Origin: Archangium sp.
GTDB taxonomy: Bacteria > Myxococcota > Myxococcia > Myxococcales > Myxococcaceae
Direction of reading: 5' to 3'
DNA: 17,795 bases
NCBI GenBank assembly: GCA_016793585.1
Contig: JAEUJR010000236.1
Span: 1 to 17,795 of the forward strand
Part shown: piece after piece, positions 149 through 17,795 of the stretch
Layout of the letters: the number at the start of each line of letters is the position of its first letter
Numbering within the stretch: position 1 is the first letter of the stretch
The notes under the pieces: model-generated
The model's input: only the letters and a program-made list of their open reading frames with translations
What the model was told of the DNA's origin: nothing
The model's database searches: none
Position numbers and translations under genes: made by a program

Positions 149-150
149 TC
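137..150 (-). terminator. Weak stem-loop at the end of the RdgC-like operon
   Basis: GACCC (137-141) and GGGTC (146-150) form a 5-bp inverted repeat around CTGA, and it can be extended with one bulged base to GTG/CAC. It overlaps the stop codon of the minus-strand gene ending at 149. There is no following T-run, so it could be only a weak or Rho-assisted terminator, or chance. Confidence 0.25.
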
Positions 151-1395: not shown

Positions 1396-1443
1396 GAGGC
1401 GCGCCGTCTTTCGCGAGCGTGAGTGGAATGCAACGCGAAAGCG

Positions 1444-1962: not shown

Positions 1963-1989
1963 GGTGCCCCCTTGAGCCGAAGACGAGGT

Positions 1990-2000
1990 GGAACGGTTCC
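1990..2000. promoter_or_regulatory. GGAACGGTTCC dyad, copy 1
   Basis: An 11-bp odd-length palindrome in the 53-bp gap between the divergent cytochrome gene (start 1962) and the RraB gene (start 2016). The identical 11-mer occurs at 5819-5829, upstream of the TPR-tetrahaem cytochrome operon. It may be an operator half-site pair; read on the minus strand, GGAACC also resembles an ECF sigma -35 element, although no convincing -10 was seen. The regulator is unknown. Confidence 0.45.
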
Positions 2001-2015
2001 GACTACGGTGCGCGC

Positions 2016-3841: not shown

Positions 3842-3897
3842 AAGCCCCCCAGTCGACCGTGAGCATGCGGCTTGTGCACGCGAACGGCAAACGAACG

Positions 3898-5163
3898 TCA
3901 GGGAGGTGCCGTGCGACCCATGGGCGAGACGAGCAGGCCGGAGGGCGTGGAGGGCCTTGGCTTGCCTGCGGCGATCCACGCCTCGACCAGGGCGATGTCC
4001 TCGGGGGCCACGGCGGGCAGGCTCAGCGGCATGCCCAGCGGTGCGTCTTCTTTCGGAGCCATCGTCTGGCGCCGGCCATCGAGCCCCGGCTTGACGAAGT
4101 CGCGCGCGTTCTCGTGCACGCGGCGCTTCAAGACCTCGAGCAGCACCGGCGCTCCGGTGGGGCCCGGGCGAAAGATCGATCGGTACTCGCCGTCGGGGCC
4201 GAGCGAGCCGTTCATCACGTCTTCATAGGTGGCGAACGAGAGGCCAAGGCCTTTGAAGCCGAAGCCGCCGGTGTTGCCAGGGCCGCCGTCACCGTCTGCG
4301 AGATCGGGGTTCGAGTGACAGTGCCAGCAGGTCTTCTTGAAGACGCGCGCCTCGACGTCTTCGTACCGAACGGGACCCGACGTCTGGAGTTCACGCTCGA
4401 GCATGTCGTCGATGGGCTCGGCCAGCGGGGTCGCGAGCACGAAGTCGGCGATCAGCTCGGCCTCGCGCCGATCGAGCTGCAGCTTCGGCATGAGCGCGCG
4501 CGGGTTGACCGACTTCGGGTCGAGCAACAGCTTCACCACCACGTCGCGATTGAGCCGATCACGGGCGTGCCGGAGATCAGGCGTGCGCGCCTCGAGCGGG
4601 AGCGCGGGAGACCGGAACTCGAAGAGCTCGGCCGGCTGCGTGGCGAAGCGCTGGTTGCCGAGCAGGTGACACATCGTGCACGTCTTCGCCTCGAAGAGCG
4701 CCTGACCCTTCTCGAGTCGTTCGCGTGTTGGCTTCGGCAAGGGCGCATCGGCGGTGAGCTTGAGCCCACGTACCAGCACCTCGAGCTCGCCATCGGTGAG
4801 CGGCAGCTTCGGCATGCTCTCGGTGAGGTGGGGCCGCAGATCGTACGGGTTGCGCAGGTACGACTTGAGCCATGAGGCACGAAACCGCGAGAGCCCCGAG
4901 AGCGGAGGCACGTCGACGTACAGCGTGCCGGTGTGTTTCACGAACCGATCGAAGGCGGCTCCGTACGTTCTGCGCCCCTGGTCGAGCTTCGCAGCATCGC
5001 CGGCAGCGCCCGAGATCTCGAGGTGACAGCCCGCGCACTGCTTGCCCGCGGGGGCGGCCTGAACGTGATCGATCTCGTGGCAGCGGTTGCACTCGAGCCG
5101 CGCGAACACCGCCGCGGGCGTCGTGGGGACGGCTGCGAGCACGGCGATGGCGACCGGCAGCAT
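3898..5163 (-). CDS. Periplasmic tetrahaem c-type cytochrome (421 aa)
   Basis: An N-terminal hydrophobic signal (residues 1-~18) precedes four CxxCH haem-binding motifs: C-N-R-C-H (25-29), C-A-G-C-H (43-47), C-T-M-C-H (162-166) and C-W-H-C-H (279-283). Candidate axial Met ligands are in the S-M-P-K-L and L-M-P-K-L segments (M117, M225). The two closely spaced N-terminal haems followed by two single-haem cytochrome c-like domains suggest a modular electron-transfer protein rather than a compact NrfA-type enzyme; no CxxCK or known catalytic motif is present. The start overlaps the stop of the upstream TPR gene (TGATG). The substrate or partner is unknown. Haem attachment by the Ccm machinery encoded divergently next door is a reasonable inference. 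Confidence 0.85.
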   Translation of the reverse strand: MLPVAIAVLAAVPTTPAAVFARLECNRCHEIDHVQAAPAGKQCAGCHLEISGAAGDAAKLDQGRRTYGAAFDRFVKHTGTLYVDVPPLSGLSRFRASWLKSYLRNPYDLRPHLTESMPKLPLTDGELEVLVRGLKLTADAPLPKPTRERLEKGQALFEAKTCTMCHLLGNQRFATQPAELFEFRSPALPLEARTPDLRHARDRLNRDVVVKLLLDPKSVNPRALMPKLQLDRREAELIADFVLATPLAEPIDDMLERELQTSGPVRYEDVEARVFKKTCWHCHSNPDLADGDGGPGNTGGFGFKGLGLSFATYEDVMNGSLGPDGEYRSIFRPGPTGAPVLLEVLKRRVHENARDFVKPGLDGRRQTMAPKEDAPLGMPLSLPAVAPEDIALVEAWIAAGKPRPSTPSGLLVSPMGRTAPP

Positions 5164-5777
5164 CAGCTCTTCGACGTCGGCTTCAGGGGCTCGGCGGCAG
5201 GCTTGGGAGCGGGGGCGAGGGTCGACAGCAGCTGCCGGGCCTCGGGGTGTTCAGGCTGAACCGAGAGGGCCTTTTCACAGGCAGCGCGCGCCCCCTCGAC
5301 GTCACCTGCGCGGTTGCGGGCTGCGGCGAGCGCCGTCCACGCGTCGGCGTCGGCGAGCATGCCGTCGGTGGCCATCTTCTCGAGCACCTCCTTCGCGGCG
5401 TCGTCGACCGTGCCCTTCTGCTCGGCCAGCCGCAGCGAAGCCTCGGCCAGCTTGGCCTGCACGAAGGGCTCCTTCTTGTCCTTCAGCAGCGCGCTGAAGG
5501 AGTCGGCCGAACTGGCGAAGCGGCCCAGCTTCAGGTTCGACAGGCCGAGGGTGCGCAACAAGGCGCGACGTTCACCTGCAGAGGGAGACGCGCCCAGCCC
5601 CTGCTCGGCGGCGCCGACCGCTTCGGCGTAGCGGCCATCGCGATAGGCCTTCGAGGCGCTGGCGACGAAGTTCTCGCGTTGCTCCATCAGCTGGTGACGC
5701 ATGCTGTTGCCGCAGGCGTAGGCGGCGGGGGCGGCGAGAACGAGGGCCAGGGCGACAGCGGCGAGCATGGGTTTCAT
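5163..5777 (-). CDS. Periplasmic TPR protein (204 aa), partner of the tetrahaem cytochrome
   Basis: The start is the ATG at 5777, preceded by GGAG at good spacing and opening a clear signal peptide (MKPMLAAVALALVLAAPAAYA). A Cys follows directly after the likely cleavage site. The mature protein is alpha-helical with TPR-like repeats: A-Y-R-D-G-R-Y-A-E-A-V, L-G-L-S-N-L-K-L-G-R-F, then A-L-A-A-A-R-N-R-A-G-D-V-E-G-A-R-A-A-C-E-K-A-L with the typical A/G-A-L-x-x-x-P ending. The C-terminus is Pro/Ala/Lys-rich. It overlaps the cytochrome gene by one base, so it is probably a scaffold or assembly factor for that cytochrome (inference). The frame stays open upstream to 6758, but that portion is antisense to ccmF. 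Confidence 0.75.
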   Translation of the reverse strand: MKPMLAAVALALVLAAPAAYACGNSMRHQLMEQRENFVASASKAYRDGRYAEAVGAAEQGLGASPSAGERRALLRTLGLSNLKLGRFASSADSFSALLKDKKEPFVQAKLAEASLRLAEQKGTVDDAAKEVLEKMATDGMLADADAWTALAAARNRAGDVEGARAACEKALSVQPEHPEARQLLSTLAPAPKPAAEPLKPTSKS

Positions 5778-5818
5778 CAGGGCTCCTTCGGTGCGGCGGG
5801 GCGGTTCACACCAACAAC

Positions 5819-5838
5819 GGAACGGTTCCACAGGTTCC
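5819..5838. promoter_or_regulatory. GGAACGGTTCC dyad, copy 2, plus an extra GGTTCC half-site
   Basis: GGAACGGTTCC at 5819-5829 is identical to 1990-2000. A second GGTTCC at 5833-5838 follows the first (5824-5829) at 9-bp periodicity, and a related GGTTCA sits at 5803-5808. The cluster is flanked by GGGGCG (5798-5803) and CGCCCC (5841-5846). It lies 41 nt upstream of the TPR-cytochrome operon and 137 nt upstream of ccmF, in the 198-bp divergent gap. No other clear promoter elements were identified in that gap. Confidence 0.45.
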
Positions 5839-5975
5839 AACGCCCCGGACATCGGGCGAGCGTCGGTGGGGATGCCGCGGCGCCGCAAACCGTGCGCGTG
5901 GGCTCTCATCGGTTCGATTTCAGGCAGGAAAGAGTCTCGCTCGTCGGTGAGCCCCAAGTTCGTTACAAGGCCCTC

Positions 5976-8054
5976 GTGAATTCGACACTTGGGTATGGGC
6001 TGGTGCTGGCCGGGCTTGGCTTCGCCGCGTTCGCGGCGGTGGTCGGTCTGGTCACTGGCATGACACGACGCGAGAGTGCGCTGCCGTGGGTGCAGCGCGC
6101 CATCTACGGCTTCGCGGCCTCGATGATCCTCTCGAACGTGGTGATGGTGAAGGCGCTGCTCGAGCACGACTTCTCGGTGAAGTACGTCTCGCAGGTCGGC
6201 AGCCGCGCCACGCCGACGATCTTCACCATCGTCTCGTTGTGGAGCGCGCTCGAGGGCTCGATTCTCTTCTGGGGCGCGATCATGGGGGCGTACCTGCTGG
6301 CCTTCGCGCTCACGTACCGCAACGAGCACGGGCGCTACATGCAGCTCTCGCTCGGCGTGATGGCGGCGGTGGCGACGTTCTTCGCGTTTCTCATCGCGGG
6401 GCCGGCAAACCCCTGGGGCCACGTCGCGAACCCGCTCTCTGACGGCCCGGGCCCGAACCCGCTGCTGCAGAACCCCGTGCTGATGATCATTCACCCGCCG
6501 ATGCTGTACCTCGGGTACGTCGGCATGACGGTGCCCTTCGGCATCGCAGCCGGAGCGCTGCTGCGTGGCGAGCTCGGCGACGCGTGGCTGGTGCCCCTGC
6601 GAAAGTGGACGCTGGTGCCCTGGCTGTTCCTCTCGATCGGCATCATCCTCGGCTCGTGGTGGGCGTACGCGGTGCTCGGCTGGGGCGGCTACTGGGCGTG
6701 GGACCCCGTCGAGAACGCGTCGTTCATGCCGTGGCTGACGTCGACGGCGTTCATGCACTCGACGATGGTGCTCGAGCGCAAGAAGTCACTGAAGCTGTGG
6801 ACGATCGCCCTCGCCCTCGGCAGCTTCGTGCTCACCGTCATCGGCACCTTCATGACGCGTTCGGGTGTCTTCAACTCGGTGCACGCCTTCACGCAGTCTG
6901 ACATCGGCCCCACGTTCCTCGTGTTCATCGCCATCGTGCTGGTGTTCAGCGTGCTGCTGCTCACCTTCCGCGGGCACCTGCTCATCGCCGAGAGCCACCT
7001 CGAGACCGTCATCTCGCGCGAGGGCTCGATTCTGGTGAACAACCTCGTCTTCGTGGCGCTCACGTTCACGGTGCTGCTGGGCACCCTCTTCCCGCTCGTC
7101 ACCGAGGCGCTGCAGCAGAAGAAGATCAGCGTCGGTGAGCCCTACTTCAACACCATGGCGCTGCCGCTCGGGCTGTTGATGCTCTTCCTCATGGGCGTCG
7201 GGCCGATGCTGCCGTGGGGCAAGGCCGACCCGAAGGTGCTGCGGCAGCAGTTCTTCATTCCCAGCGCGATCGGCCTCGCGACGATGCCGCCCGTGCTGCT
7301 GTGGCGCTACTCGTGGTGGGAGCCCTTCACCGGCGTCGAGAAGACGTTCGGCGCGTTCCTCTCGCAGTTCCGCGGCGGCGACTGGATGGCGATGGTCACC
7401 TTCGGGGTGGGCGCCTTCGTGACGGTGGTGACGCTGCGCGAGATGTTCCTGCCCGCGCAGCAGCGCATGGCGGAATCGAAGGAGTCGTTCTTCACGGCCT
7501 TCGTCTCGTCGGCCAGCCGCGCGCGCCGCCGCTTCGGTGGCTATGTGGTGCACCTCGGCATCGTGGCCATCGTCATCGCGATCGCGGCCTCGTCTGCCTA
7601 CAAGGTCGCGGCCGAGAAGACCGTGCGCGCCGGAGACACGCTGAAGGTCGGCCAGTACACGGTGCGCTTCGACAAGCTCTCGCAGGGCAAAGAGCCGCAC
7701 CGCGACTGGATCGCGGCCGACCTCACCATCATCGGGCCCGACGGCGCCGAGTGGAGGCACTCGGGCATCGATGCGCCGCGCATGAACTACTACGAGCGCT
7801 CGAACGACCCCATCGGCTCGCCGCTGGTGCAGGAGATGGTGTGGCGCGACATCTACGTGTCGCTGCGAACCTTCGACTCGAAGAACCAGACCGCGACCTT
7901 CAACGCCTGGGTGTTCCCGCTCGTGGGGTGGATCTGGTACGCGATTCCGCTGCTGGTGATCGGTACGCTGATCGCGCTCTGGCCGCAGCGAAAGTCGATC
8001 GCTGCCGTGAAGCCCGAGACCGCGCCCTCGAACGCCGCCACGGGGACGACATGA
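5976..8054 (+). CDS. ccmF: Cytochrome c haem lyase subunit CcmF (692 aa)
   Basis: A large polytopic inner-membrane protein of the CcmF/NrfE family, which receives haem from CcmE and ligates it to apocytochrome c with CcmH. The tryptophan-rich WWD signature is at residues 226-254 (G-S-W-W-A-Y ... W-G-G-Y-W-A-W-D-P-V-E-N ... P-W-L), and about 14 hydrophobic segments span the protein, with a periplasmic C-terminal domain before the last helix. Conserved His residues before and after the WWD block (in the I-H-P-P-M-L-Y and F-M-H-S-T-M segments) fit haem-ligand positions. I chose the GTG at 5976 because AAGG lies just upstream and the frame upstream of it is antisense to other genes. The length is near the family's ~650 aa. 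Its stop overlaps the next start (ATGA). Confidence 0.95.
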   Translation: MNSTLGYGLVLAGLGFAAFAAVVGLVTGMTRRESALPWVQRAIYGFAASMILSNVVMVKALLEHDFSVKYVSQVGSRATPTIFTIVSLWSALEGSILFWGAIMGAYLLAFALTYRNEHGRYMQLSLGVMAAVATFFAFLIAGPANPWGHVANPLSDGPGPNPLLQNPVLMIIHPPMLYLGYVGMTVPFGIAAGALLRGELGDAWLVPLRKWTLVPWLFLSIGIILGSWWAYAVLGWGGYWAWDPVENASFMPWLTSTAFMHSTMVLERKKSLKLWTIALALGSFVLTVIGTFMTRSGVFNSVHAFTQSDIGPTFLVFIAIVLVFSVLLLTFRGHLLIAESHLETVISREGSILVNNLVFVALTFTVLLGTLFPLVTEALQQKKISVGEPYFNTMALPLGLLMLFLMGVGPMLPWGKADPKVLRQQFFIPSAIGLATMPPVLLWRYSWWEPFTGVEKTFGAFLSQFRGGDWMAMVTFGVGAFVTVVTLREMFLPAQQRMAESKESFFTAFVSSASRARRRFGGYVVHLGIVAIVIAIAASSAYKVAAEKTVRAGDTLKVGQYTVRFDKLSQGKEPHRDWIAADLTIIGPDGAEWRHSGIDAPRMNYYERSNDPIGSPLVQEMVWRDIYVSLRTFDSKNQTATFNAWVFPLVGWIWYAIPLLVIGTLIALWPQRKSIAAVKPETAPSNAATGTT

Positions 8055-8572
8055 AGAAGGCAGGCCCCGTCATCGCGTTGGCCGTCATCGGCCTGCTCAT
8101 CTTCGTGCTGTTCAAGGCCTTCGGCACCGACCCGCACGAGGTGCCGTTTCTGCTCTCGGGCAAGAAGGCGCCGAACTTCAAGATCAAGCGGCTCGACACC
8201 GATCAGGAGGTCACGCTCGAGCAGTTCAAGGGCCGGCCCATCGTGCTCAACTTCTGGGCGACGTGGTGTGGCCCCTGCAAGATGGAGCACCCGGTGCTCG
8301 AGTACGCGTGGCGCAAGTACGAGAAAGACGCCGTGTTCCTCGGCATCGTGTTCGAAGACACCGAGGCGAACACCAAGCGCTTCCTGCAGGAGAACGGCTT
8401 CACCTTCCCCCAGCTGTTCGACCCCAAGTCGACGGTGGCGGTGGACTTCGGCGTGTCGGGCGTGCCCGAGACGTACTTCATCACGCGTGACGGGGTCATT
8501 CAGGGCAAGGTGGCTGCGCCCTTCACCGACCCGATGCAGATCGACTTGCGCATGCGGGGGATTCTCAAGTGA
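8051..8572 (+). CDS. ccmG: CcmG/DsbE/ResA-like thiol-disulfide oxidoreductase (173 aa)
   Basis: A membrane-anchored periplasmic thioredoxin. One uncleaved N-terminal helix (~6-24) precedes a thioredoxin fold with W-C-G-P-C (Cys73, Cys76) inside N-F-W-A-T-W-C-G-P-C, and a cis-Pro in G-V-P-E-T (P139). The family keeps the CxxCH cysteines of apocytochromes, or the CcmH cysteines, reduced for haem ligation. The AhpC/TSA-like N-terminal part and length (173 aa) fit ResA/CcmG. Its ATG overlaps the ccmF stop by 4 nt and its own stop overlaps the ccmH GTG. ccmG and resA cannot be told apart by sequence alone; operon context favours a maturation role either way. Confidence 0.92.
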   Translation: MKKAGPVIALAVIGLLIFVLFKAFGTDPHEVPFLLSGKKAPNFKIKRLDTDQEVTLEQFKGRPIVLNFWATWCGPCKMEHPVLEYAWRKYEKDAVFLGIVFEDTEANTKRFLQENGFTFPQLFDPKSTVAVDFGVSGVPETYFITRDGVIQGKVAAPFTDPMQIDLRMRGILK

Positions 8573-9063
8573 CGGCGCTCGCTCTCGTCCTCTCGTTGGC
8601 GTTGGGTCAGGGCTACGCCCCGCAGCGGCAGGGGCTCGACCCGCTCGAGGCAGAAAAAGAAGCGCGCGTGATGCGGCTGGGAAAACAGCTGCGCTGCGCC
8701 GTGTGCCAGGGCGTCTCCATCGCCGACTCTCCGGCCTCGATGGCCCGCGCGCAGCTCGACAAGGTGCGCGAGCTCGTCTCGGAGGGCAAGAGCGACCAGG
8801 AGATCTACGACTACTTCATCGAGCGCTACGGTGAGTGGGTGCTGCTGCAGCCGACGACGGGCGGGCTCAACTCGGTGCTGTGGCTCGGGCCGGTCGCGTT
8901 GCTCGGCATCGGGCTCGTCGTCATCGTGCTGCAGTCGAAGAAGAAACGCGCCGTGGCTCCCGAGGCCGCGAGCGCGGCCTCCGTTCCCGAAGGTGCTGCG
9001 GCGCCTGCTCCCTCGACCGAAGACGCCCTGCTCGCGCAGGTGCGCGCTGACCTGGAGAAGTGA
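8569..9063 (+). CDS. ccmH: Cytochrome c maturation protein CcmH (164 aa)
   Basis: A signal/anchor-like N-terminus is followed by the CcmH (CcmH/CycL/NrfF) motif L-R-C-A-V-C-Q (Cys43, Cys46), the helical D-x-x-A-x-M-A-R-A-Q-L-D segment and the Y-D-Y-F-I-E-R-Y-G-E-W-V-L-L-Q-P block. A transmembrane helix at ~102-122 is followed by a Lys/Arg cluster and an Ala/Pro-rich cytoplasmic tail. CcmH holds the apocytochrome as a mixed disulfide and works with CcmF. It starts at GTG 8569, overlapping the ccmG stop (GTGA). The tail (~residues 128-164) is longer than in minimal CcmH proteins and low in complexity. Confidence 0.93.
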   Translation: MTALALVLSLALGQGYAPQRQGLDPLEAEKEARVMRLGKQLRCAVCQGVSIADSPASMARAQLDKVRELVSEGKSDQEIYDYFIERYGEWVLLQPTTGGLNSVLWLGPVALLGIGLVVIVLQSKKKRAVAPEAASAASVPEGAAAPAPSTEDALLAQVRADLEK

Positions 9064-10028
9064 TGGCTGCCCCCGAGACGAACTGGCTGCCTGGCATTCT
9101 GGTGACCGCTGCGGGTGTCGTCGGCTCGCTGGCCTTCCTGTTCCTCGCCAGGCGTGGCGGCCCCGAGAAGGACTCGGCCCCGCCCGATGACTTGAACGCG
9201 CGCTACCAGACGGTGATCGGCGAGCTCAAGGAGCACACCGCCAACAAGCACCTGCTGCCCGCTGACTCGTGGGAAACCGAGAAGAAGCGGCTCGAGGCGC
9301 TGGCGGTGTCGTTGCTCAAGCAGCGCGACGCGCACAAACACGAGGCGCTCAAGGCCGAGGCGCGCGCCGAGCGAAAGGCGCAGGCCGCCGCGAAAGAGAC
9401 GGGCCTGCTGGCGACGAACCCGCAGCTCAAGGGCGCGCTGCTCGGTGGCGCGGTGGTGCTCTTCTTCGCCGTGCTGTGGATCTCGCTGAACGAGGCGACG
9501 AAGCCTCGCGCTGACGGCATGGAGGCCACGGGCATGATGGCGGGAGGCCAGCAGATGCCGCCGCAGGAGCCCCAGGAGCCGCAGCAGGACATGCGCCTCG
9601 AGTCGCTGCTGGCCGCCGTGCAGAAGTCGCCTGACGACATCGACGCGCTCGCCGAGGCGGGCCTGTACCTCATCAGCAAGCAGGGCTTTCAAGAGGCACG
9701 CCCGTTCATTCAGCGCGCGTCGATGCTCGACCCGTTTCACGTGAAGACGCGCGTCTGCCGGGCGATCATGCTCGCCGTCGACGGCGACGTGACGGGCTCG
9801 CTGGGTGAGCTCGAGCGGCTCGCTGCGCTCTACCCTGACGCGTACGCGGGCAACCTGTACGCGGGCATGCTGTCGATGGATCAGAACGACCCCGGCCGCG
9901 CGGTGAAGAACTTCGAGGCCTACGTCGGTGCGGCGCCGCCCGACGAGGTGCCGCCGATGATGCGGGGCGCGATCGCGCAGATCAAACAGCAGCTCGCGTC
10001 GGGCATGCCTCCGCAGCCGCAGCAGTGA
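9063..10028 (+). CDS. ccmI: CcmI/CycH-like TPR membrane protein (321 aa)
   Basis: The N-terminal helix (~9-29) is followed by a cytoplasmic L-K-E-H-like coiled region with many Lys/Glu/Ala, a second helix (~124-142), a Met/Gln/Pro-rich linker (Q-Q-M-P-P-Q-E-P-Q-E-P-Q) and a periplasmic TPR-like domain (~155-310). Two membrane helices, a leucine-zipper-like loop and a C-terminal TPR domain is the CcmI plan; CcmI chaperones apocytochrome to CcmFH. Either the ATG at 9063 (TGATG overlap with ccmH) or the GTG at 9060 could start it; I prefer the ATG. The last codons abut the convergent GST stop with no space. The sequence is divergent, so the CcmI call rests mostly on architecture and position. 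Confidence 0.8.
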   Translation: MAAPETNWLPGILVTAAGVVGSLAFLFLARRGGPEKDSAPPDDLNARYQTVIGELKEHTANKHLLPADSWETEKKRLEALAVSLLKQRDAHKHEALKAEARAERKAQAAAKETGLLATNPQLKGALLGGAVVLFFAVLWISLNEATKPRADGMEATGMMAGGQQMPPQEPQEPQQDMRLESLLAAVQKSPDDIDALAEAGLYLISKQGFQEARPFIQRASMLDPFHVKTRVCRAIMLAVDGDVTGSLGELERLAALYPDAYAGNLYAGMLSMDQNDPGRAVKNFEAYVGAAPPDEVPPMMRGAIAQIKQQLASGMPPQPQQ

Positions 10029-10568
10029 TCAGTACGTGACCGCGCGCCTGATGGCCGGGCGCTCGACCTGTCGGCGCAGGTACGGCAGCAGGCCGGGCCG
10101 GGCCTCCAGCAGCTTCAGCGTGTTCGCCAGGTGCAGAATCGACGCGAGCACCACGTCGGCCGCCGTGAACGAGTCGCCGACCACGAAGCTGCGCGAACGA
10201 ACACGCGCTTCGATCACTTCGAGCACCACCTGCAGGCGCGCCTGATCGACCTGCGATCCCCTGAAGGCGTCGAGCACCAACGGCTCGAGGTGGGTCTCGG
10301 CGAAGAGCAGCCACTGCAGGTATGGGCCGCGATCAGGCGAGTCGAGGGCCGGCGCCAGCTTCTTCTCGGGGAAACGGTCGGCCAGGTACAGACACATGGC
10401 CGGTGACTCGAAGAGCGTGACGTCGCCATCGACGAGCACGGGCACCTCACCGAGGGGGTGGAGCGGGTTTGGCCCGTCGGTCTTCACGAGCTCGTAGGGA
10501 ACTTCGAGTTCCTCCAGAATCCACCGGGGGCGAACGGCGCGGGTGCGGGGCGCTGCATGGAGTTTCAT
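10029..10568 (-). CDS. Small glutathione S-transferase family protein (179 aa)
   Basis: The N-terminal thioredoxin-like half starts with M-K-L-H-A-A-P-R-T-R-A-V-R, followed by W-I-L-E-E-L-E-V-P-Y-E-L, the cis-Pro segment G-E-V-P-V-L-V-D-G and the glutathione gamma-glutamyl-binding E-S-P-A motif. A helical C-terminal half contains a family-like F-x-x-A-D-V-V-L-A segment. At 179 aa it is a little short for the ~200-220 aa family. The usual catalytic Ser/Tyr position reads T-R or A, so the activating residue is not obvious. AAGGTG precedes the ATG at 5-nt spacing. It is divergent from a LysR regulator with dyads between them, so LysR control is likely. Its substrate cannot be inferred. Confidence 0.9.
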   Translation of the reverse strand: MKLHAAPRTRAVRPRWILEELEVPYELVKTDGPNPLHPLGEVPVLVDGDVTLFESPAMCLYLADRFPEKKLAPALDSPDRGPYLQWLLFAETHLEPLVLDAFRGSQVDQARLQVVLEVIEARVRSRSFVVGDSFTAADVVLASILHLANTLKLLEARPGLLPYLRRQVERPAIRRAVTY

Positions 10569-10594
10569 GAGCCCACCTTGAGGCCGCGAAGTCG

Positions 10595-10642
10595 ACCTGA
10601 CAATGCGGTGGCTCTCGAACTCTTTGTCAGGTTATTCCTGAC
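10595..10642. promoter_or_regulatory. LysR-type operator cluster between the GST and LysR genes
   Basis: Three copies of one half-site occur in the 76-bp divergent gap: CCTGAC (10596-10601), GTCAGG (10626-10631) and CCTGAC (10637-10642). The first two extend to a perfect 9-bp inverted repeat, ACCTGACAA (10595-10603) and TTGTCAGGT (10624-10632). The last two form GTCAGG-TTATT-CCTGAC, a close dyad ending 2 nt before the LysR ATG. This layout, with a recognition site and an activation/autoregulation site, is typical of LysR regulation of a divergent target. Confidence 0.7.
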
Positions 10643-10644
10643 GC

Positions 10645-11514
10645 ATGATCTCGCCCGCCGACATGGTGCTGTTCGCCGCGATCGTTCGTGAAGGCAGCTT
10701 CAGCGAGGCGGCGCGCCGACAGGGCATCACGAAGCAGACCGCGAGCGAGCGCATCAAGAACCTCGAGACGCAGCTCGGCGTGCGGCTGCTGGAGCGAACG
10801 ACGCGGCGGTTGCGGGTGACGCAGATCGGCGCCACCTACTTCGACCGCTGCGCCACCATCGCCGCCGAGATCGACGAGGCGAACCACGAGGTGCAACGAC
10901 AACAAGCAGAGCCGGCCGGGCTGCTGCGACTCTCGTCACCGACGCTCTACGGCCGCCGCTACCTGGCCCCGGTCATCTCGAAGTTCCTCTCGCGCCACCC
11001 GCTCGTGCGCATCGAGCTGGTGCTCGCGAACCGGCGCGTCGACCTGCTCGAAGAGGGCATCGACGTGGCGATTCACCTGGGGCCCCTCGACGACTCGTCG
11101 CTGGTGTCGCGGTCACTCGGTGAAGGCCCGCTGTACTTCGTCGCGAGCCCCGGCTTCCTCGCGAAGCACGGCAAACCGAAGGCGACCGAGCTCGAGAAGA
11201 CCCGGTGCATCGGGTTGAGCCCGTTCGAGACGTGGCGGGTGGGCGACGTGAAGGCCCGTCTCGAGCCGGTGCTCATGGTGAACGACTACGAGGTGGCGTG
11301 CGACGCGGCGGTCGAGGGGGTTGGTGTGGCGCGGGTGCCAGCGCTCGTCTGCGCAGAGGCGGTGCGCGCCGGCAAGCTGAAGATGCTCTTCGGGCCGAAG
11401 CCCGCCATGATGCGAGCCATCTCGCTCGTCTACCCGAGCCGCCTGAACCTGCCGCCGAAGGTGCGGCTCTTCATCGACGCGATGGTCGCGCTCACCGAAC
11501 CGCGACGGCCTTGA
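10645..11514 (+). CDS. LysR-family transcriptional regulator (289 aa)
   Basis: The N-terminal winged helix-turn-helix is clear: F-x-x-I-V-R-E-G-S-F-S-E-A-A-R-R-Q-G-I-T-K-Q-T-A-S, then I-K-N-L-E-x-Q-L-G-V-R-L-L-E-R-T-T-R-R. The effector-binding domain follows (~residues 88-289), with P-L-V-R-I-E-L, G-I-D-V-A-I-H-L-G and V-G-V-A-R-V-P-A landmarks. The family forms tetramers that activate a divergent gene and usually repress themselves. No Shine-Dalgarno is seen before the ATG, and the nearest dyad ends at 10642, so the transcript may be leaderless or very short-leadered. The likely target is the adjacent GST gene. The effector is unknown. Its end overlaps the convergent vWA gene by 23 bp. Confidence 0.95.
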   Translation: MISPADMVLFAAIVREGSFSEAARRQGITKQTASERIKNLETQLGVRLLERTTRRLRVTQIGATYFDRCATIAAEIDEANHEVQRQQAEPAGLLRLSSPTLYGRRYLAPVISKFLSRHPLVRIELVLANRRVDLLEEGIDVAIHLGPLDDSSLVSRSLGEGPLYFVASPGFLAKHGKPKATELEKTRCIGLSPFETWRVGDVKARLEPVLMVNDYEVACDAAVEGVGVARVPALVCAEAVRAGKLKMLFGPKPAMMRAISLVYPSRLNLPPKVRLFIDAMVALTEPRRP

Positions 11515-13291
11515 GCACGGGCCGCGCCTTCTCGAGCAGCGACACGAACTCGGCCCGATCGGCGGCGGTGCCACGAGCGCTTCTCGCGATCTCCAGCATC
11601 GCGTCGAGGCTCCACCCGCGCGCGTGTTGGCTCTGACGGAACAGCTCGGCCGCCCCCACCACCGCCGTCGTGAACCGGAAGTCGTCTGACGCACCGTCGA
11701 AGCGACTCGAGAGCATCGACGCCGCGAAGGGGAACGCCGCCTCTGACGCTTCGGTGCCACGCGGCTTCTTCGCGCGCACCCGCACCGTGCACAGCTTGTC
11801 GCCAGCGCCGGGCTGCAGCTCGACCTCGTACATGGCGGTCACCGTGTGGCCCGAGCCGATCTCGCCCGCGTCGACCTTGTCGTTGCGGAAGTCGCGGTCG
11901 GCGATGTCGCGGTTCTCGTAGCCGATGAGGCGGTAGCGCTTCACCTGCGCGGCATCGAAGTCGACCTGCAGCTTCACGTCCTGCGCGAGCACCTCGAGCG
12001 TGCCGCCGAGCTCGGTCTGGAAGATGCGCTTCGCCTCGAACAACGAGTCGACGTAGTAGTGGTTGCCGTTACCCTTGTTGGCGAACTGCTCCATCACGTC
12101 GTCTTTGTAGTTGCCCATGCCGAAGCCGACGGTCGTGACGGTGACGCCCTCCTTCACGTGGCCGGCGATCAGCTTGAGGATCTCCTGCGGCCCCGTCGGC
12201 CCGACGTTCGCGTCGCCGTCGCTCAGGATCACCACGCGCGACACCGACTGCCCGTCGAGCACCTTCGTGGCCTGCTGGTACGCGAGCTCGATGCCACTCG
12301 CCATGGCCGTCGAGCCACCTGCGGTGAGCGACGCGATGGCCTCGTGAATCTGCGCCTTCTTCTCCATGCCGGTGTGCGGCAGGACGAGGCGAACGGCGCC
12401 CGCGTAGGTGACCAGCGCCACGGTGTCTCCGTCGTGCAGCGAGTCGACGAGCAACCGCAGCGCGCGCTGAGCCAGCGGCAGCTTGTCGGCCGACTGCATC
12501 GAGCCCGAGACGTCGACGAGGAAGGTGAGGTGCGCGGGTTTGCGCTCCGACATCGACAGCCGCTTGCCCTGCACGCCGACGCGCAGCAGGTGTCTGCCGG
12601 GCGAGAACGGAGACGGCGCGGCCTCCATCGTGACGCCGAGCGCGCCATCGACGGGCTGCGGGTACGAGTAGCGGAAGTAGTTCACGAACTCCTCCACGCG
12701 CACCGACTCGCTGGGCGGCAGGGAGCCCGAGAGGATCTTGCGGCGCGCCACCGTGTACGACGCGGTGTCGACGTCGGCTGCGAAGGTCGACAGGTGATCC
12801 TTCTCCGCCAGTGTCCACGCGTTCACGCCGTAGTCGCCGTACGACTCGGTCGAGTCGACCCGATCGCCCGTCGCCATCGCCAAGCCACTGCCGCCCTTCG
12901 CCGCGAGGCCACCAATCGCAACGCCCATCGAACGCCCGGCCCCACCCAACCCGAGGCCGCCAACGCCCGACACCGTGCCAATGGAGGCGCCGCGGAGTCC
13001 GACGCCCGCGGAGGTGCCAACCCCCGAGGCGCCACTGAGGGCGCCGGCGCCCTTCGTTCCTGCCCCGCGAGCGGCGAGCGCCTCGAGCAGGCCACTCTCG
13101 TTGATTCGCTTCGTCGGCTCGGAAGCGTTGGCCGTCGTCGCTCCCGTCGGGCTTTGGCCGGCAGCAACCTCGGCCTTCTTTTCCACCTTCTGCGCCATCA
13201 GCTTCTGGGTCGCAGGGCTCGCGACCGGTTCAGGGCGAGATGAGCTGGTGCAGGCACACAACGACGCCACCGCGAGCGCGGACAGACGCAT
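11492..13291 (-). CDS. YfbK-like von Willebrand factor A lipoprotein (599 aa)
   Basis: The N-terminus MRLSALAVASLCAC suggests a lipoprotein signal with Cys14 as the lipidated residue. A Lys/Ala/Thr-rich segment leads into a Gly/Ala/Ser-rich stretch (~76-138), then the YfbK-type block (F-A-A-D-V-D-T-A-S-Y-T, V-R-V-E-E-F-V-N-Y-F) and a vWA domain (~252-420) with an intact MIDAS metal site: D260-x-S262-x-S264, T328 in G-G-S-T and D358 in S-D-G-D. The C-terminal ~150 residues match the DUF3520-like region of this family. vWA domains with a complete MIDAS bind metal-coordinated protein partners. GGGAG precedes the ATG at 5-nt spacing. Its partner is unknown and no MoxR-type ATPase gene is adjacent. 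Confidence 0.9.
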   Translation of the reverse strand: MRLSALAVASLCACTSSSRPEPVASPATQKLMAQKVEKKAEVAAGQSPTGATTANASEPTKRINESGLLEALAARGAGTKGAGALSGASGVGTSAGVGLRGASIGTVSGVGGLGLGGAGRSMGVAIGGLAAKGGSGLAMATGDRVDSTESYGDYGVNAWTLAEKDHLSTFAADVDTASYTVARRKILSGSLPPSESVRVEEFVNYFRYSYPQPVDGALGVTMEAAPSPFSPGRHLLRVGVQGKRLSMSERKPAHLTFLVDVSGSMQSADKLPLAQRALRLLVDSLHDGDTVALVTYAGAVRLVLPHTGMEKKAQIHEAIASLTAGGSTAMASGIELAYQQATKVLDGQSVSRVVILSDGDANVGPTGPQEILKLIAGHVKEGVTVTTVGFGMGNYKDDVMEQFANKGNGNHYYVDSLFEAKRIFQTELGGTLEVLAQDVKLQVDFDAAQVKRYRLIGYENRDIADRDFRNDKVDAGEIGSGHTVTAMYEVELQPGAGDKLCTVRVRAKKPRGTEASEAAFPFAASMLSSRFDGASDDFRFTTAVVGAAELFRQSQHARGWSLDAMLEIARSARGTAADRAEFVSLLEKARPVLKAVAVR

Positions 13292-13352
13292 GAAGACTCC
13301 CAGGTGTGAGTGAGCCGCCCGTGAACCGAGCGCGCGTCGTCAGACACTGGGG

Positions 13353-13380
13353 CGAACCGAAGGTTCCTTCGTTCTGTTCG
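13353..13380 (-). terminator. Hairpin after the mosaic-lipoprotein operon
   Basis: CGAAC-CGAAGG (13353-13363) and CCTTCG-TTCT-GTTCG (13366-13380) pair into an interrupted 11-bp stem with a 4-nt bulge and a 2-nt centre, in the 98-bp gap after the lipoprotein stop at 13390. There is no T-run on the minus strand. It could be a Rho-assisted terminator or an RNA-stabilising hairpin; as DNA, CGAAGGTTCCTTCG is a 14-bp near-palindrome that could also bind a protein upstream of the vWA gene. Confidence 0.4.
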
Positions 13381-13389
13381 GGCCGGGCG

Positions 13390-15747
13390 TCAGGGAGGCG
13401 TGACGCAATAGAACCAGAGATCGTTGCAGGTGACGGGTGAGGGCGACGGCGACGCAGGCCCCCACCAATCGACCGTCGAAGACGGGTCACCGAGGTTGGC
13501 CGACCCACTGCAGCTCACGCTGAAGGAGTCGCTGACCTGAGAACGAAAGGAGCCCCAATCATTCCCGGCGAGCACACCGCGCCTCGCCAATGACACGCCG
13601 CCGTCCAACGAGAGCGCGAAGGCGATCGGCACCAGTGGAACCCAGTTCGTCCGCAAGGTGTCGGCGGAGGGCGCCAGCGGCTTCCCGTCGAGCCTGACGA
13701 GCGCAGTCCCCGCGCCGGCGTCGAACGAGCCAAGCGACGCAGCCGGGGTCACGAGGCCGATGTAGGCGAACGCCTGCGAGCGACCCAGCAGCGAAGCGGC
13801 GAGGCGGCACGCGCCATCGAGCTCGCTCCGAGTCGGGCTCGACCAGCCCCCGTCTGGAAGGCCCGCGTCGGCCAGGGGCCGCTGCATGACGAACATCACC
13901 ACGCCCCCGTCGACAGAGACCCGTTCGTTCGGCGTCGCGGGCCGACCCGTGCCCGTGCCCAGACAGAGCAAGGGGTGCGAGTACCCGCAGCTCTCGTTGC
14001 CCGCGATCGACCACCACGCGCCGGTCGAGTTCTGGCCCAGGCGGCCGTACGGAGGGTTGCCGCCGCCCACCGAGTTCGTCCAGTTCTGGCAGTTCAGGGT
14101 CGACGTCCCGCCGTCGAGCTCGATGCCGGTCCAGAAGCCGGTCGAGGTCGAGACCTGGCCACGCGACGTGAGGAGCGGGGTGCTCAGCGGCGCCAGCAGG
14201 GTCGCCGCGGGGAACCGGTCGGGCGAGGCGTTGGCGTACCCGTCACCCGTGCGAAACCGCGAGAAGATGCCGGCGTCGGCCGTCGCCACGAATGCACGGT
14301 AGGTGCCCGGCAGGCCACCATCGAGCGCGTCGGCGTTGCAGATGGCGTCGGCCGTCAGAAGCGCACCGCCGTCGGCGCCGAAGTTGCCCAACACCGTCGT
14401 GACCGTCTCGAACATGACCGGCACGATGTCGGTGTACAGCGTCACCGCGCGGTCCTGGTTCATCACGAACGAACACGCACTCGTCGCCGCGCCCGTGCAG
14501 TCGCCACCCCAGGTGCCCAGGTCGAAGGCCAGCGTTCGTTTCGAGGTGGCAACCAGCATGGGCGGCGTCCGAACGTCGGCCATGATCTGGTTCGTGCACG
14601 TATTGGCGCACTGAGTGGAGCCGACGGTGATGAGCGGGCCAGCGTTCGGTGGCGAGACCTGCAGCGTGGCGGTGAACGACTGGCGGGCGTAGCCCTGGTC
14701 CGAGAGTGAGTCGCCGCCAGCGGGCCCTGCGTCTGCCGAGAGCGTGAAGCCGAACGTCGCGAAGCTCGTCGGCGCGAACCGCACCACGCCGAAGCACGAA
14801 GCCCCCGCGTCGAGGAAGTCGCAGCCCGCGTCGAGCAACGAGAACCCGCCGTCGGTGCTGAACGCGAACGAGATGGGGCCGATCGTCTGAGCGCCCGTGT
14901 TGCGGACCGAGAAGGTCCGATCTCTCGCCTGCCCCACCAGCTCGCTCTCCTCCGAGGTGGGAAAGAGATCTTGAGGCTCGAGCTGAACGACCCCGCCGGT
15001 CACGCCACGAACCCGAACGGGCACCGTGAAAGTCAGGCTCGTGCCGCCGATGGCGATCTGCATCGTGTCGTCGCGCGTGCCGGGTTGGCTGATCGCGACG
15101 CTGAGCTGAATCATGCAGGCCTGCATGCCCGCCACGCTCGAGCAACCGTTCGACTCGACGCTGTAGGGCGAGAGCACCGTTGGAACGAGGTTGGCGGGCC
15201 GAGTCGAGAGGTTGCGAACCACCACGCTGGTGCTCTTCATGGTGCCCACGCGAACGTCTCCGAACTCGACCAGGGGCGGCACCTCGAGCGACGGGGTGAT
15301 GGTGGCCGCGAGCGGAACCTGCAGCACGGGTACGCCCGTCGCGCGAACCTCGAGCACCCCGCTGCGCGTCGACACCGACTGATCGACAGGGCGGAAGGTG
15401 AGATCGATGGGGCAGCTCTGCCCGGGGCTCAGGGTCGAACCGCAAGCCGTCGACAACCCGAAGTCTCCTGCGTTGGTGCCAGCCAGGTTGACCGTGACCG
15501 AGTTTGCGACGCCGCCGTCGAGGTTCGAGAGCGTCACCCGTTTCGACGGGCCCATCTCGCCGCCGACGAGTGTGAAGCCGAGCTGACCTGGCGTGGCCAA
15601 CAGGACGGGCGCCTGCACGTTGTTCGTGCCGCCGTCCAGCATGGCAGCCGCGCCACACCGCCCCTCGGCCACGCACCGCTCGACGAGCGCGTCGAAGTTG
15701 TTGCAGCCGGCGAGCAGCAGGCTGAACGCCGCGAGCCATCGCCTCAT
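13390..15747 (-). CDS. Large mosaic lipoprotein: ASH-like domains, InlB-like repeat, two DUF1554-like domains (785 aa)
   Basis: I start it at the ATG at 15747, which overlaps the upstream stop (ATGA) and opens a lipoprotein signal with lipobox L-L-A-G-C (Cys15). Proposed order: three choice-of-anchor-D/ASH-like beta-sandwich domains (~50-150, 155-248, 255-366; landmarks N-A-G-D-F, S-P-G-Q-S-C and L-T-F-R-P in the first), an InlB-B-repeat-like domain (~373-443; L-G-T-W-G-G-D-C-T-G ... C-S-F-V-M), and two DUF1554-like lectin/endostatin-type domains (~443-597 and ~612-783), each ending in a L-x-C-L or F-Y-C-V strand. About 15 D-[GA]-G triplets are spread along it. It is probably a surface-exposed adhesion or sensing protein. 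Domain calls are by eye. Confidence 0.75.
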   Translation of the reverse strand: MRRWLAAFSLLLAGCNNFDALVERCVAEGRCGAAAMLDGGTNNVQAPVLLATPGQLGFTLVGGEMGPSKRVTLSNLDGGVANSVTVNLAGTNAGDFGLSTACGSTLSPGQSCPIDLTFRPVDQSVSTRSGVLEVRATGVPVLQVPLAATITPSLEVPPLVEFGDVRVGTMKSTSVVVRNLSTRPANLVPTVLSPYSVESNGCSSVAGMQACMIQLSVAISQPGTRDDTMQIAIGGTSLTFTVPVRVRGVTGGVVQLEPQDLFPTSEESELVGQARDRTFSVRNTGAQTIGPISFAFSTDGGFSLLDAGCDFLDAGASCFGVVRFAPTSFATFGFTLSADAGPAGGDSLSDQGYARQSFTATLQVSPPNAGPLITVGSTQCANTCTNQIMADVRTPPMLVATSKRTLAFDLGTWGGDCTGAATSACSFVMNQDRAVTLYTDIVPVMFETVTTVLGNFGADGGALLTADAICNADALDGGLPGTYRAFVATADAGIFSRFRTGDGYANASPDRFPAATLLAPLSTPLLTSRGQVSTSTGFWTGIELDGGTSTLNCQNWTNSVGGGNPPYGRLGQNSTGAWWSIAGNESCGYSHPLLCLGTGTGRPATPNERVSVDGGVVMFVMQRPLADAGLPDGGWSSPTRSELDGACRLAASLLGRSQAFAYIGLVTPAASLGSFDAGAGTALVRLDGKPLAPSADTLRTNWVPLVPIAFALSLDGGVSLARRGVLAGNDWGSFRSQVSDSFSVSCSGSANLGDPSSTVDWWGPASPSPSPVTCNDLWFYCVTPP

Positions 15748-16565
15748 GGCAGCACCCCCGCCCACCCCAGCCCCACCGACTGCGGCGAGAGCCACGCGAC
15801 GGGGCGCACGTCACCAGAGAACCCCAGGAGCGTCAGCAGCGCTCCCGAGACCAGGCAGGCCGCGCCAACCGTGAGGCCGACGAAGCCCATCGTCTGCATC
15901 ACCTTGCCTTCGCTCGCGACGGCGACGGCCTCGTCGCGACTGAGGAAGGACCCGGCGCCGAGCTGCTGGGCGATGTTGCCGCTTCGGACGAACCCGAGCA
16001 CACCGACTCCGGTGAAGACGGCGCCCACGCCCAGCAACGTCAGGCCGGCGATCTTCGTGGGAGACGAGGGGGTGATGGAGTGAGACGCCGGCGCCGTCGT
16101 CAGCCGAACCCAGTCACCCTCGGTGAGATCGCGGGCCATCAGCTGGGCGCCTTTCCCCATCACGTCGAGCAAGCCACCCTCGTCGGTCGCCCGGCCCGTG
16201 AAGACGATGAGGGGCCGACCGTCGCGGCTCCAGACGACCTTCAACGAGACCTGAAAGCCGCCCGACTCGAGCTTCGCGGCTTCGCCCATCACCACGCCGT
16301 CGACCCCGAGCGCCGACGCCATCTCGGCGATGCAGCTGGTTGCCGACTCGGAGCACCCGAGCAGCTCGCGCTGCCGCTCCAACCCCAGCAGGGTCGCGAT
16401 CTGCTTGGGCGTCACGACCGAGACGCCCTGCGCCGCCATCTGCTGCGCGACGAACTCGCTGTAGAACTCGCCGCGCTCGGGCGGAATGCCAGAGAGCGAA
16501 ATGCCGGCGCTCGCGCCTTTGAATGGAGCAGCGGCCAATGCCACAGCAACGACGATCGAGATCAT
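15744..16565 (-). CDS. CsgG/TolB-like N-terminal domain membrane protein (273 aa)
   Basis: A signal-like N-terminus (MISIVVAVALAAAPF) precedes a domain of the type common in myxobacterial secreted proteins: F-Y-S-E-F-V-A-Q-Q-M, V-V-T-P-K-Q-I-A-T-L-L-G-L-E-R-Q-R, a Cys pair in L-L-G-C-x6-C (Cys71, Cys78), and G-V-D-G-V-V-M-G-E. This resembles the TolB-N/CsgG-like fold, where the paired Cys could form a disulfide. The C-terminal half has two membrane helices (~172-193 and ~224-248). GGGGGAG lies very close (2 nt) to the ATG. It overlaps the lipoprotein gene, so the pair probably works together at the envelope. No function is assigned; the fold call is by resemblance. Confidence 0.6.
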   Translation of the reverse strand: MISIVVAVALAAAPFKGASAGISLSGIPPERGEFYSEFVAQQMAAQGVSVVTPKQIATLLGLERQRELLGCSESATSCIAEMASALGVDGVVMGEAAKLESGGFQVSLKVVWSRDGRPLIVFTGRATDEGGLLDVMGKGAQLMARDLTEGDWVRLTTAPASHSITPSSPTKIAGLTLLGVGAVFTGVGVLGFVRSGNIAQQLGAGSFLSRDEAVAVASEGKVMQTMGFVGLTVGAACLVSGALLTLLGFSGDVRPVAWLSPQSVGLGWAGVLP

Positions 16566-16634
16566 GACTCCCCCGGGCAGGTGCCGAGTGTTAGCCGATC
16601 TGCTGCTCGGGGCGGAGCTCCTCGAACCGAAACC

Positions 16635-17015
16635 TCAGTGGTTCACCGTGAGACCTGCGGCCTTCCAGCCCTTCATGCCTTCTGACATCACCGACACGTT
16701 CGTCCACCCGCTCTTCGCCGCCCGACCGGCGGCTTCGTGCGAGGCCGTTCACATTCGACTCGTGCAGTAGAAGACGAGCGGTCGATCGTGATCGGCCGGC
16801 AGCACCGACACCGGGAACTCGAGGTAGTCGTCGAGCAGCACGGCGCCTGGAACCCACCCTGCCCCTTCGCGGTACTCGGGCGTGTTGGCGTCGACCGGGG
16901 TCGCGGTCTTCGCGAGAAACTGGGCGGCGGCGTCGGCCACCGAGATCTCCTTCACGACCGCTTCGCGCTTGCACCCCGCGAGCAGAAGACCGAGCAGCAA
17001 CGCGCGTTGGAGCAT
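16635..17015 (-). CDS. Probable selenocysteine-containing rhodanese-like lipoprotein (126 aa with in-frame TGA)
   Basis: The start is the ATG at 17015; no strong Shine-Dalgarno is visible. Residues 1-15 (MLQRALLLGLLLAGC) are a lipoprotein signal with lipidated Cys15. A rhodanese-like domain follows: V-D-A-N-T-P-E-Y-R, W-V-P-G-A-V-L-L, then L-V-F-Y-C with the likely catalytic Cys84, giving C-T-S-R-M. TGA at 16751-16749 is codon 89. The same frame continues for 37 codons with good codon bias (T-A-S-H-E-A-A-G-R-A, V-S-V-M-S-E-G-M-K-G-W-K) to TGA at 16637-16635. In related rhodaneses, as I recall them, this position is Cys in C-x4-C-x-A-S-H. Selenocysteine is the preferred reading. The alternative is a nonsense-truncated pseudogene of 88 aa that has lost the conserved C-terminus. 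It is divergent from the sigma factor gene. Confidence 0.75.
16717..16733 (-). promoter_or_regulatory. Candidate bacterial SECIS hairpin
   Basis: Immediately downstream of the in-frame TGA (16751-16749) the mRNA can fold GCCGCC-GGUCG-GGCGGC: a perfect 6-bp GC stem with a 5-nt loop opening in GG. The stem starts at +16 and the loop at +22 after UGA, inside the usual bSECIS distance, and a G in the first two loop positions is the recognised SelB-binding feature. It lies within coding sequence, as bacterial SECIS elements do. No folding energy was computed. Confidence 0.6.
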
Positions 17016-17081
17016 CGAGGCGTCGTAGCGCAGGTCGACTGCACGAAAAAGATGTCCCCTCGAATGCGGGTGGAGCGACCC
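17016..17081. promoter_or_regulatory. Divergent gap between rhodanese and sigma factor genes
   Basis: The 66 bp must hold both promoters, but no convincing -35/-10 pair is seen on either strand. A GGAG at 17072-17075 is the likely ribosome binding site for the sigma factor ATG at 17082 (6-nt spacing). No strong Shine-Dalgarno was found ahead of the rhodanese ATG. Confidence 0.4.
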
Positions 17082-17684
17082 ATGCCCATGGAGTCGACAG
17101 CAGACGCTTGGGGCTTGAGTCCGAGTGCGCGAGGCTGGGCCCGAATGGCGGCCTCGACCGAGCGCTTCAACGAGCTGTACCGCCGGTTCGCGCCAGCCGT
17201 CTTTCGGCGCGCGAAGTCACTGCTGGGTGGAGACGAAGCCGAAGCGCACGACGTCACGCAAGACGTGTTCCTCGGCTACTTCAAGCTCGACGCGAAGCTC
17301 ACGGGAGCCGCCAGCCCGTTCACGGTGCTGTACCAGATGGCGACGTACCAATCGGTCGATCGGCTGCGGCGACGTGCTCGCTGGCACGGGCGCCTCAGCG
17401 CGCTGACTGCCGAAGAAGACGGCGAAGGCCCGACGGTGCAGCTGCCCTCGAGTGACGGAGGAACCGTGCGGGTCGAAGCGACGCACGATCTCGCGCTGCT
17501 GACGAAGGGCGAAGACGAACAGACGCTGACGTGCGCGATGCTGTACTTCGTCGAAGGCCACACCACGTCGGAGATCGCCGAGACGCTCGACATCTCGCGC
17601 AAGACGGTCGGCCGGGCCCTCGCGGCCTTCGCGGAGCGGGCCAACAAACGCGCCGAGCGCTTCACGCCGAAAGGAGCCGCATGA
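17082..17684 (+). CDS. Sigma-70 family (ECF-like) RNA polymerase sigma factor (200 aa)
   Basis: Region 2 (~26-95) reads F-N-E-L-Y-R-R-F-A-P-A-V-F-R-R-A with D-E-A-E-A-H-D-V-T-Q-D-V-F-L, the -10 recognition/core-binding signature, and S-V-D-R-L-R-R-R-A-R-W. Region 4 (~140-195) ends in a helix-turn-helix (T-S-E-I-A-E-T-L-D-I-S-R-K-T-V-G-R-A-L), which reads -35 elements. Between them is a ~40-residue linker without a sigma 3 domain, as in ECF factors. I prefer the ATG at 17082 because of its GGAG; the ATG at 17145 is the other option and would remove 21 residues. The stop overlaps the next gene (ATGA), whose product may control it. The stimulus is unknown. Confidence 0.9.
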   Translation: MPMESTADAWGLSPSARGWARMAASTERFNELYRRFAPAVFRRAKSLLGGDEAEAHDVTQDVFLGYFKLDAKLTGAASPFTVLYQMATYQSVDRLRRRARWHGRLSALTAEEDGEGPTVQLPSSDGGTVRVEATHDLALLTKGEDEQTLTCAMLYFVEGHTTSEIAETLDISRKTVGRALAAFAERANKRAERFTPKGAA

Positions 17685-17795
17685 GCGAGCCACGGCCACT
17701 GCCTGACGCGTTGCTCGAGCGCTACGTCGCAGGCGATCTCACGGGTGAGAGCCTCGCGAAGGTCGAGCGGGCGATCGCAGAGTCTGCGAAAGAGC
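17681..17795 (+). CDS. Start of a gene cotranscribed with the sigma factor, truncated by the window edge
   Basis: The ATG overlaps the sigma factor stop by 4 nt and follows AAGGAG at 5-nt spacing. The 38 visible codons read MSEPRPLPDALLERYVAGDL and then a helical segment rich in Glu/Ala/Lys. An L-E-R-Y-x-A-G-D-L opening is common in proteins that follow sigma factors in myxobacteria, including membrane anti-sigma factors, but no zinc-binding or membrane motif is visible yet. An anti-sigma role is inference from position. Confidence 0.7.
   Translation, partial: MSEPRPLPDALLERYVAGDLTGESLAKVERAIAESAKE

Follow-up and report, generated by a model that had tools for sequence, protein, structure and literature searches.

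A predicted selenocysteine at the end of the active-site loop in a small rhodanese-like protein of Archangium sp.

Contig JAEUJR010000236.1 of Archangium sp. (assembly GCA_016793585.1) was analysed over positions 1 to 17,795, a stretch of 17,795 nucleotides hereafter called the window, which carries on its minus strand a rhodanese-like gene with an in-frame TGA at codon 89. Judging from its homologues, this gene almost certainly encodes a selenoprotein, and it is very likely that selenocysteine (Sec) is inserted at codon 89 with the help of a downstream hairpin, a putative bacterial Sec insertion sequence (SECIS). Sec89 would close the six-residue active-site loop, C-x4-U, at a position held by cysteine in other family members. 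Decoding of this TGA as Sec had been proposed in a first-pass annotation of the window, and it is now supported by the pairing of Cys and TGA among homologues, by the SECIS hairpin, and by the Sec machinery of a relative.

The gene starts at an ATG (17015-17013) and closes with a terminal TGA (16637-16635). As the annotation had stated, conventional reading yields 88 aa, and 37 further codons with a normal stop lie beyond the internal TGA. The gene is otherwise intact: the read-through product matches PF00581 over residues 38-120, up to the last position of the profile (41.1 bits; cut-off 22.2), and contains both the ASHEAA and the VMSEGMKGW blocks. An 88-aa relative that ends at codon 89 (P0013) reaches 20.5 bits with the same profile, under the cut-off. 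The AlphaFold2 model of the Cys version has a mean pLDDT of 91.3, and an end at codon 89 would remove two helices and one strand of the modelled fold.

Cysteine and TGA at the same column

A search of ~5.8 billion proteins returned 81 homologues, of which 48 have C-x4-C and the remaining 33 end exactly four residues after FYC. The annotation had placed the TGA at the second Cys of a C-x4-C motif, and this proved correct, as each of the 81 proteins either has Cys at column 89 or ends there. Eight of 36 proteins found in a second search, with one of the TGA genes as query, also end at codon 89, which brings the database proteins ending there to 41 (33/81 and 8/36). Records named Anaeromyxobacter dehalogenans 2CP-1, Anaeromyxobacter sp. 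K, and Anaeromyxobacter sp. PSR-1 have products of 93-94 aa that end at the same place. No full-length database record with Sec was seen in the protein search, which was not built to show one.

At the nucleotide level, 147 genomes of the class were searched, and 59 had a match at E ≤ 1e-6. TGA was found at codon 89 in 35 further genes from 34 genomes (36 genes with that of the window), and Cys (TGC or TGT) in 40 homologous rows. Three of the 38 listed matches with one TGA were dropped: the second match of G020 and that of G021, neither of which could be assigned to column 89, and that of G135, which has its TGA at column 119. Row L086, counted among the 40 with Cys, is a fragment at a contig end; it has TAG at column 83 and shares its downstream stretch with L060 from the same genome. 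The Sec/Cys comparison excludes two duplicates and six aligned rows in which column 89 holds another codon. Five loci, in assemblies of Archangiaceae, Myxococcaceae, or Myxococcales, came from a scan of genome contigs; each has TGA at the codon and continues homologously beyond it. The TGA recurs in separate genomes, which makes a base-call error at codon 89 very unlikely. A search of the phylum covered 195 genomes and gave a match at E ≤ 1e-12 in 53 of them; nine of these are outside the class set, and none of their matches contains an internal stop. A plasmid search returned a single record, from Deinococcus.

Two divergent homologues, P0080 and P0083, end at CGGPG and CTDAG, exactly four residues after FYC, and are probably TGA forms of further lineages, judging from this end point. 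Among the matches listed, ten homologues (P0119-P0124, P0126-P0128, and P0132) have 219-269 aa, against the usual 130-160; their length suggests tandem or extended C-x4-C rhodaneses.

The codons beyond the TGA are under selection. Over 21 pairs of the seven closest genes, the median dN/dS was 0.25 (range 0.12-0.82) for the 34 codons after the TGA and 0.39 (range 0.11-0.74) for the 55 codons before it. Therefore, the downstream stretch evolves as coding sequence under purifying selection. The window and its nearest relative gave 0.40 after and 0.11 before the TGA, on seven and eight differences.

The hairpin downstream of the TGA

The putative SECIS of the window begins 15 nt after the TGA and has a 6-bp stem and a 5-nt loop that opens with GG and lies 21 nt after the TGA. 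It thus agrees with four points of the published geometry of bacterial SECIS elements, namely a loop of 3-9 nt, a G in its first two positions, an upper stem of 4-16 bp, and a UGA-loop spacing of 16-37 nt, as given in the part of that article available to us (PMC13188914). The full 6-bp stem is present in the same register in 35/36 TGA genes vs 0/40 Cys rows, while synonymous recoding with the codon usage of the family would give about 7.5/36. The register was taken from the TGA genes themselves, which are related and not independent; the Cys rows and the synonymous recodings served as controls.

Covariation was examined in 31 of the 36 TGA sequences, leaving out L056, L057, L082, and the window, each of which is identical to an included row over the 42 bases used, and L090, whose register is shifted. 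Standard pairs fill 97.7% of the pair cells, and three of seven pairs show changes on both sides (10 cells). None of 500 shuffles reached the observed pairing percentage, the number of cells with both-side changes, or the covariation score, and when the partner was shifted by one to three columns, pairing fell to 24-58%. Folding energy is a weak signal overall: the mean z was -0.69 for the 36 TGA genes vs -0.12 for 42 Cys rows, two of them duplicates (one-sided p 0.004). The case for the hairpin therefore rests on stem register and covariation across genes.

A covariance model built from 21 sequences outside the clade of the window was tried on 10 TGA loci not used to build it and on 32 Cys loci. 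It matched nine of the 10 TGA loci at the site and missed L005. The hairpin site was its top match in the window (17.6 bits, E 0.0064; next match 13.9 bits), and in L003 an off-site match (17.5 bits) exceeded that at the own site (13.0 bits). Homologous sites were matched in three of the 32 Cys loci, L073 (14.2 bits), L035 (11.5 bits), and L077 (8.5 bits). An Rfam search of the locus gave four weak matches, all far under their gathering scores.

Selenocysteine machinery in related genomes

The first-pass annotation had named selA, selB, selC, and selD as genes to be looked for in the genome. The closest relative of the window is an Archangiaceae metagenome assembly (G001), whose locus L001 is syntenic with it (two collinear segments of 4652 and 2126 bases, 91.0% and 92.5% identical). 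All four components are found in this relative, with 72.3 bits for tRNA-Sec, 298.5 for SelB, 571 for SelA, and 386.4 for SelD.

Among the genomes of the class, SelB was over its cut-off in 31/34 genomes with the TGA form vs 11/22 with the Cys form only (p 0.001), and tRNA-Sec in 28/34 vs 13/22 (p 0.07). One or the other was found in 33/34 vs 14/22 (p 0.0015), and the 34th TGA-form genome, G025, has SelA and SelD. This combination of a TGA-form gene, SelA, and SelD with no tRNA-Sec over the Rfam cut-off was also observed in G006, G008, G009, and G017. Genomes of this kind may be incomplete assemblies or may carry a divergent tRNA-Sec.

A Sec-containing formate dehydrogenase was considered as proof of decoding in G001-G005 and rejected, the TIGR01591 matches listed there being free of TGA. 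TGA-bearing TIGR01591 matches were seen in G018, G020, G023, G029, G128, and G129.

Evolution of the Sec and Cys forms

A tree was inferred from 75 of 76 rows (one was lost to the motif filter) with column 89 masked. The window falls within an all-Sec group of 11 (support 94/88). Seven changes between Sec and Cys are needed on this tree (6-8 in bootstrap trees; mean 25 with shuffled labels), and at least four are forced by well-supported branches. The Sec form and a separate Cys form were found in one genome in G001-G005, G136, and G099, among others; the C-x4-C paralogues are loci L046, L047, and L049-L053 (genomes G001, G004, G136, G099, G005, G002, and G003). Such a genome offers a natural Sec/Cys pair in one cell, and with matched forms of this kind, the reason for Sec taking the place of Cys can be tested directly in bacteria that grow in culture.

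Alternative explanations and proposed mechanism

If the TGA were a real stop, the gene would give a functional 88-aa product, or be a pseudogene or a sequencing error, with a fortuitous frame downstream. Database proteins do end there, also in named genomes, and the 88-aa form retains the catalytic Cys; however, the same TGA stands in 36 genes at a column where 40 homologous rows have Cys, and the codons downstream are constrained about as strongly as those upstream. The truncated relative falls under the Pfam cut-off, truncation would cost the modelled fold two helices and a strand, and the hairpin associated with the TGA covaries. We consider a real stop very improbable on these grounds.

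Several observations nevertheless weigh against Sec insertion in the window. The Sec machinery is read from relatives and not from the own genome of the window, so to speak at one remove, and six of the 34 TGA-form genomes have no tRNA-Sec over the cut-off. A looser tRNA-Sec search of these six gave only a borderline match in G015 (48.9 bits; cut-off 47), and a similar borderline match (47.6 bits) occurs in the Cys-only genome G097. The hairpin of the 36th TGA gene, L090, is present in a shifted register and stands outside the covariation alignment. Two of five covariation measures are weak, namely the number of pairs with both-side changes (3; reached in 25/500 shuffles) and that of further pair types (4; 184/500). 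The folding energy of the window is not unusual against synonymous recoding (z +0.19), because A-A-G-R-A-A codons pair easily in a GC-rich genome. No conserved operon partner was seen in 16 loci, where the neighbours vary by lineage (judged by eye on open reading frame starts).

The chemistry, the partner, and the substrate of a Sec89 protein are what we infer from a comparison that itself supports Sec at codon 89, a SECIS, and a rhodanese fold. In classical rhodaneses such as bovine rhodanese and Azotobacter RhdA, the active-site loop spans six residues, from the catalytic Cys to an Arg or Thr that touches the persulfide. In the predicted selenoprotein, decoded at codon 89 under the direction of the hairpin, Cys84 would take up a sulfane sulfur or a (mixed) disulfide. 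Attack by Sec89 on the Cys84-bound species would then release sulfide or thiol and leave a Cys84-Sec89 selenyl-sulfide, a bond that a thiol or a thioredoxin-like partner could reduce. The active-site anatomy makes the selenyl-sulfide and a persulfide role, as the annotation had suggested, plausible. The odds are about even that the protein works by such Cys-Sec redox-pair chemistry, as a persulfide/disulfide reductase or a redox relay rather than a plain sulfurtransferase.

The selenoprotein might instead be a plain thiosulfate/thiol sulfurtransferase in which Sec merely stabilises the Cys84 persulfide in place of Cys or Arg and no redox pair forms. The rhodanese fold, the intact catalytic loop, and the contact of the classical loop end with the persulfide agree with this, but the column is Cys or the protein end in 81/81 homologues and at least four Sec/Cys changes are needed on the tree, which suggests chalcogen redox chemistry at column 89; we regard the plain sulfurtransferase as a rather unlikely though serious alternative. 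Less likely still is selenium handling, with Cys84 and Sec89 binding perselenide or reducing selenite at the envelope. That rhodanese can carry selenium as perselenide is stated in the title of a reference in PMC5877670, and the accessible part of the same article describes Geobacter extH, a rhodanese-like gene clustered with extI, whose loss impairs selenite reduction. ExtH is a 49 kDa protein, unlike the small protein of the window (PMC5877670, same part), and no selenium gene was recognised near the gene in 16 loci, which were judged by eye on predicted open reading frame starts and not by a dedicated search.

Returning to redox-pair chemistry, we tentatively suggest, at somewhat less than even odds, that the TGA genes form a widespread subfamily of envelope C-x4-U seleno-rhodaneses, not named as such in the annotation consulted, with Sec at the persulfide-facing loop end and a function as selenol-dependent persulfide reductase or sulfur/selenium relay. 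Such a subfamily would have undergone several Cys/Sec switches, with Sec and Cys paralogues side by side in some genomes. Already with Sec at codon 89, selenium chemistry is brought into a rhodanese of the envelope, a compartment whose persulfide handling is little understood, and the 41 database proteins that end at this codon are missing nearly one third of their full length and a part of the fold.

Relation to known rhodanese-like selenoproteins

The nearest relatives are the C-x4-C single-domain rhodaneses of Myxococcota and others (PF00581; 48/81 homologues), which share the domain and the FYC, ASH-x-AA, and GW blocks but have Cys at +5 and the full 6-bp stem in 0/40 Cys rows. GlpE of E. 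coli (1gmx) and further rhodaneses of solved structure are cytoplasmic, are not known to contain Sec, and have a different residue at +5.

Rhodanese forms 1-5 are listed with the motifs UxxS, UxxG, CxU, UxxG, and UxxxxU in a 2026 list of 119 families and subfamilies, and C-x4-U is absent from the motifs in the part of this list available to us (PMC13188914). The strings CxxxxU and CX4U gave no match in a literature text search, which leaves out many subscription papers. The motif listed for form 5, TsoB (NF045694), a rhodanese/DsbD fusion, has the same spacing (PMC13188914, Table 1). The rhodanese part of TsoB is the best-scoring NCBIfam model on the window protein (35.2 bits, residues 71-125), but this is a 572-position fusion model with two Sec whose cut-off of 805 bits is not reached, whereas the window protein has 126 aa and one internal TGA; no TsoB over the cut-off was found in the 147 genomes of the class. 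LYCAU (form 3, CxU; NF041203) is likewise a small rhodanese selenoprotein but has Sec two residues past Cys, not five, and the window protein scores 22.7 bits against its cut-off of 115. Seven diverse TGA-form relatives were also under the cut-offs of the CxU-form and TsoB models.

Form 1 (PF00581, WP_010941598.1), compared by its motif in Table 1 of PMC13188914 only, fits many of the TGA genes, which read U-x-A-S or U-x-x-S. The part of a 2022 review available to us lists no motif for this form, and it did not turn up among the best 120 of 1322 matches of a mixed-alignment protein search. Sulfurtransferase selenoproteins from metagenomes and genomes, described as COG0607, COG2897, cd01449, or 'homologous to a rhodanese-like protein', are also of the rhodanese type; they could be compared by description, the accessible parts of these articles giving no Sec position (PMC1088965; PMC2398784; PMC5029168). 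The entry for A. dehalogenans in a 2006 survey, in the part available, counts 11 selenoproteins and names no rhodanese. Since the UxxS motif of form 1 fits and the Sec position of the older entries is not given, the window protein is placed among the known rhodanese-like selenoproteins as a C-x4-U variant. The novelty claimed in the first-pass annotation thus holds with respect to database annotation and is tempered, with respect to the literature, by form 1 and by the older sulfurtransferase entries.

Gene features and neighborhood

The features of the gene are collected in Table 1. A loose lipobox pattern is matched by 12/36 TGA-form genes, and the window protein is probably a lipoprotein of the envelope or periplasm, judging from its N-terminal motif.

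Table 1. Predicted features of the rhodanese-like gene in the window.
Feature	Coordinates	Strand	Basis
Rhodanese-like selenoprotein gene (predicted), 126 aa, Sec at 89	16635..17015	-	Open reading frame, PF00581, AlphaFold2 model
Codon 89 TGA, predicted selenocysteine, C84 + 5	16749..16751	-	36 TGA genes vs 40 TGC/TGT rows, same column
Codon 84 TGC, catalytic Cys of the rhodanese loop	16764..16766	-	FYC invariant in two alignments
Putative bacterial SECIS hairpin, GCCGCC-GGTCG-GGCGGC	16717..16733	-	Register, compensatory changes, covariance model
Putative signal peptide with lipobox-like LAGC (residues 12-15, Cys15)	16971..17015	-	Motif scan only

Directly after the rhodanese gene, on the same strand, lies a gene for a 273-aa protein without Pfam match (15744-16565), adjoined by one for an 801-aa protein (13390-15795, minus strand) with an ASH match of 30.4 bits (cut-off 27) and weaker HYDIN-like and DUF1554 matches. 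A sigma-70-like open reading frame (16737-17684, plus strand; Sigma70 region 2 and HTH matches) extends mechanically across the rhodanese gene. The in-frame ATG at 17082 may be where this frame truly begins, in which case it and the rhodanese gene would be divergent. Cytochrome c maturation genes (CcmF and CcmH domains) are present at 4872-9060 on the plus strand, several kilobases from the rhodanese gene, and genes resembling a Ccm cluster, judged by eye, also lie near the rhodanese gene in loci L005, L103, and L104.
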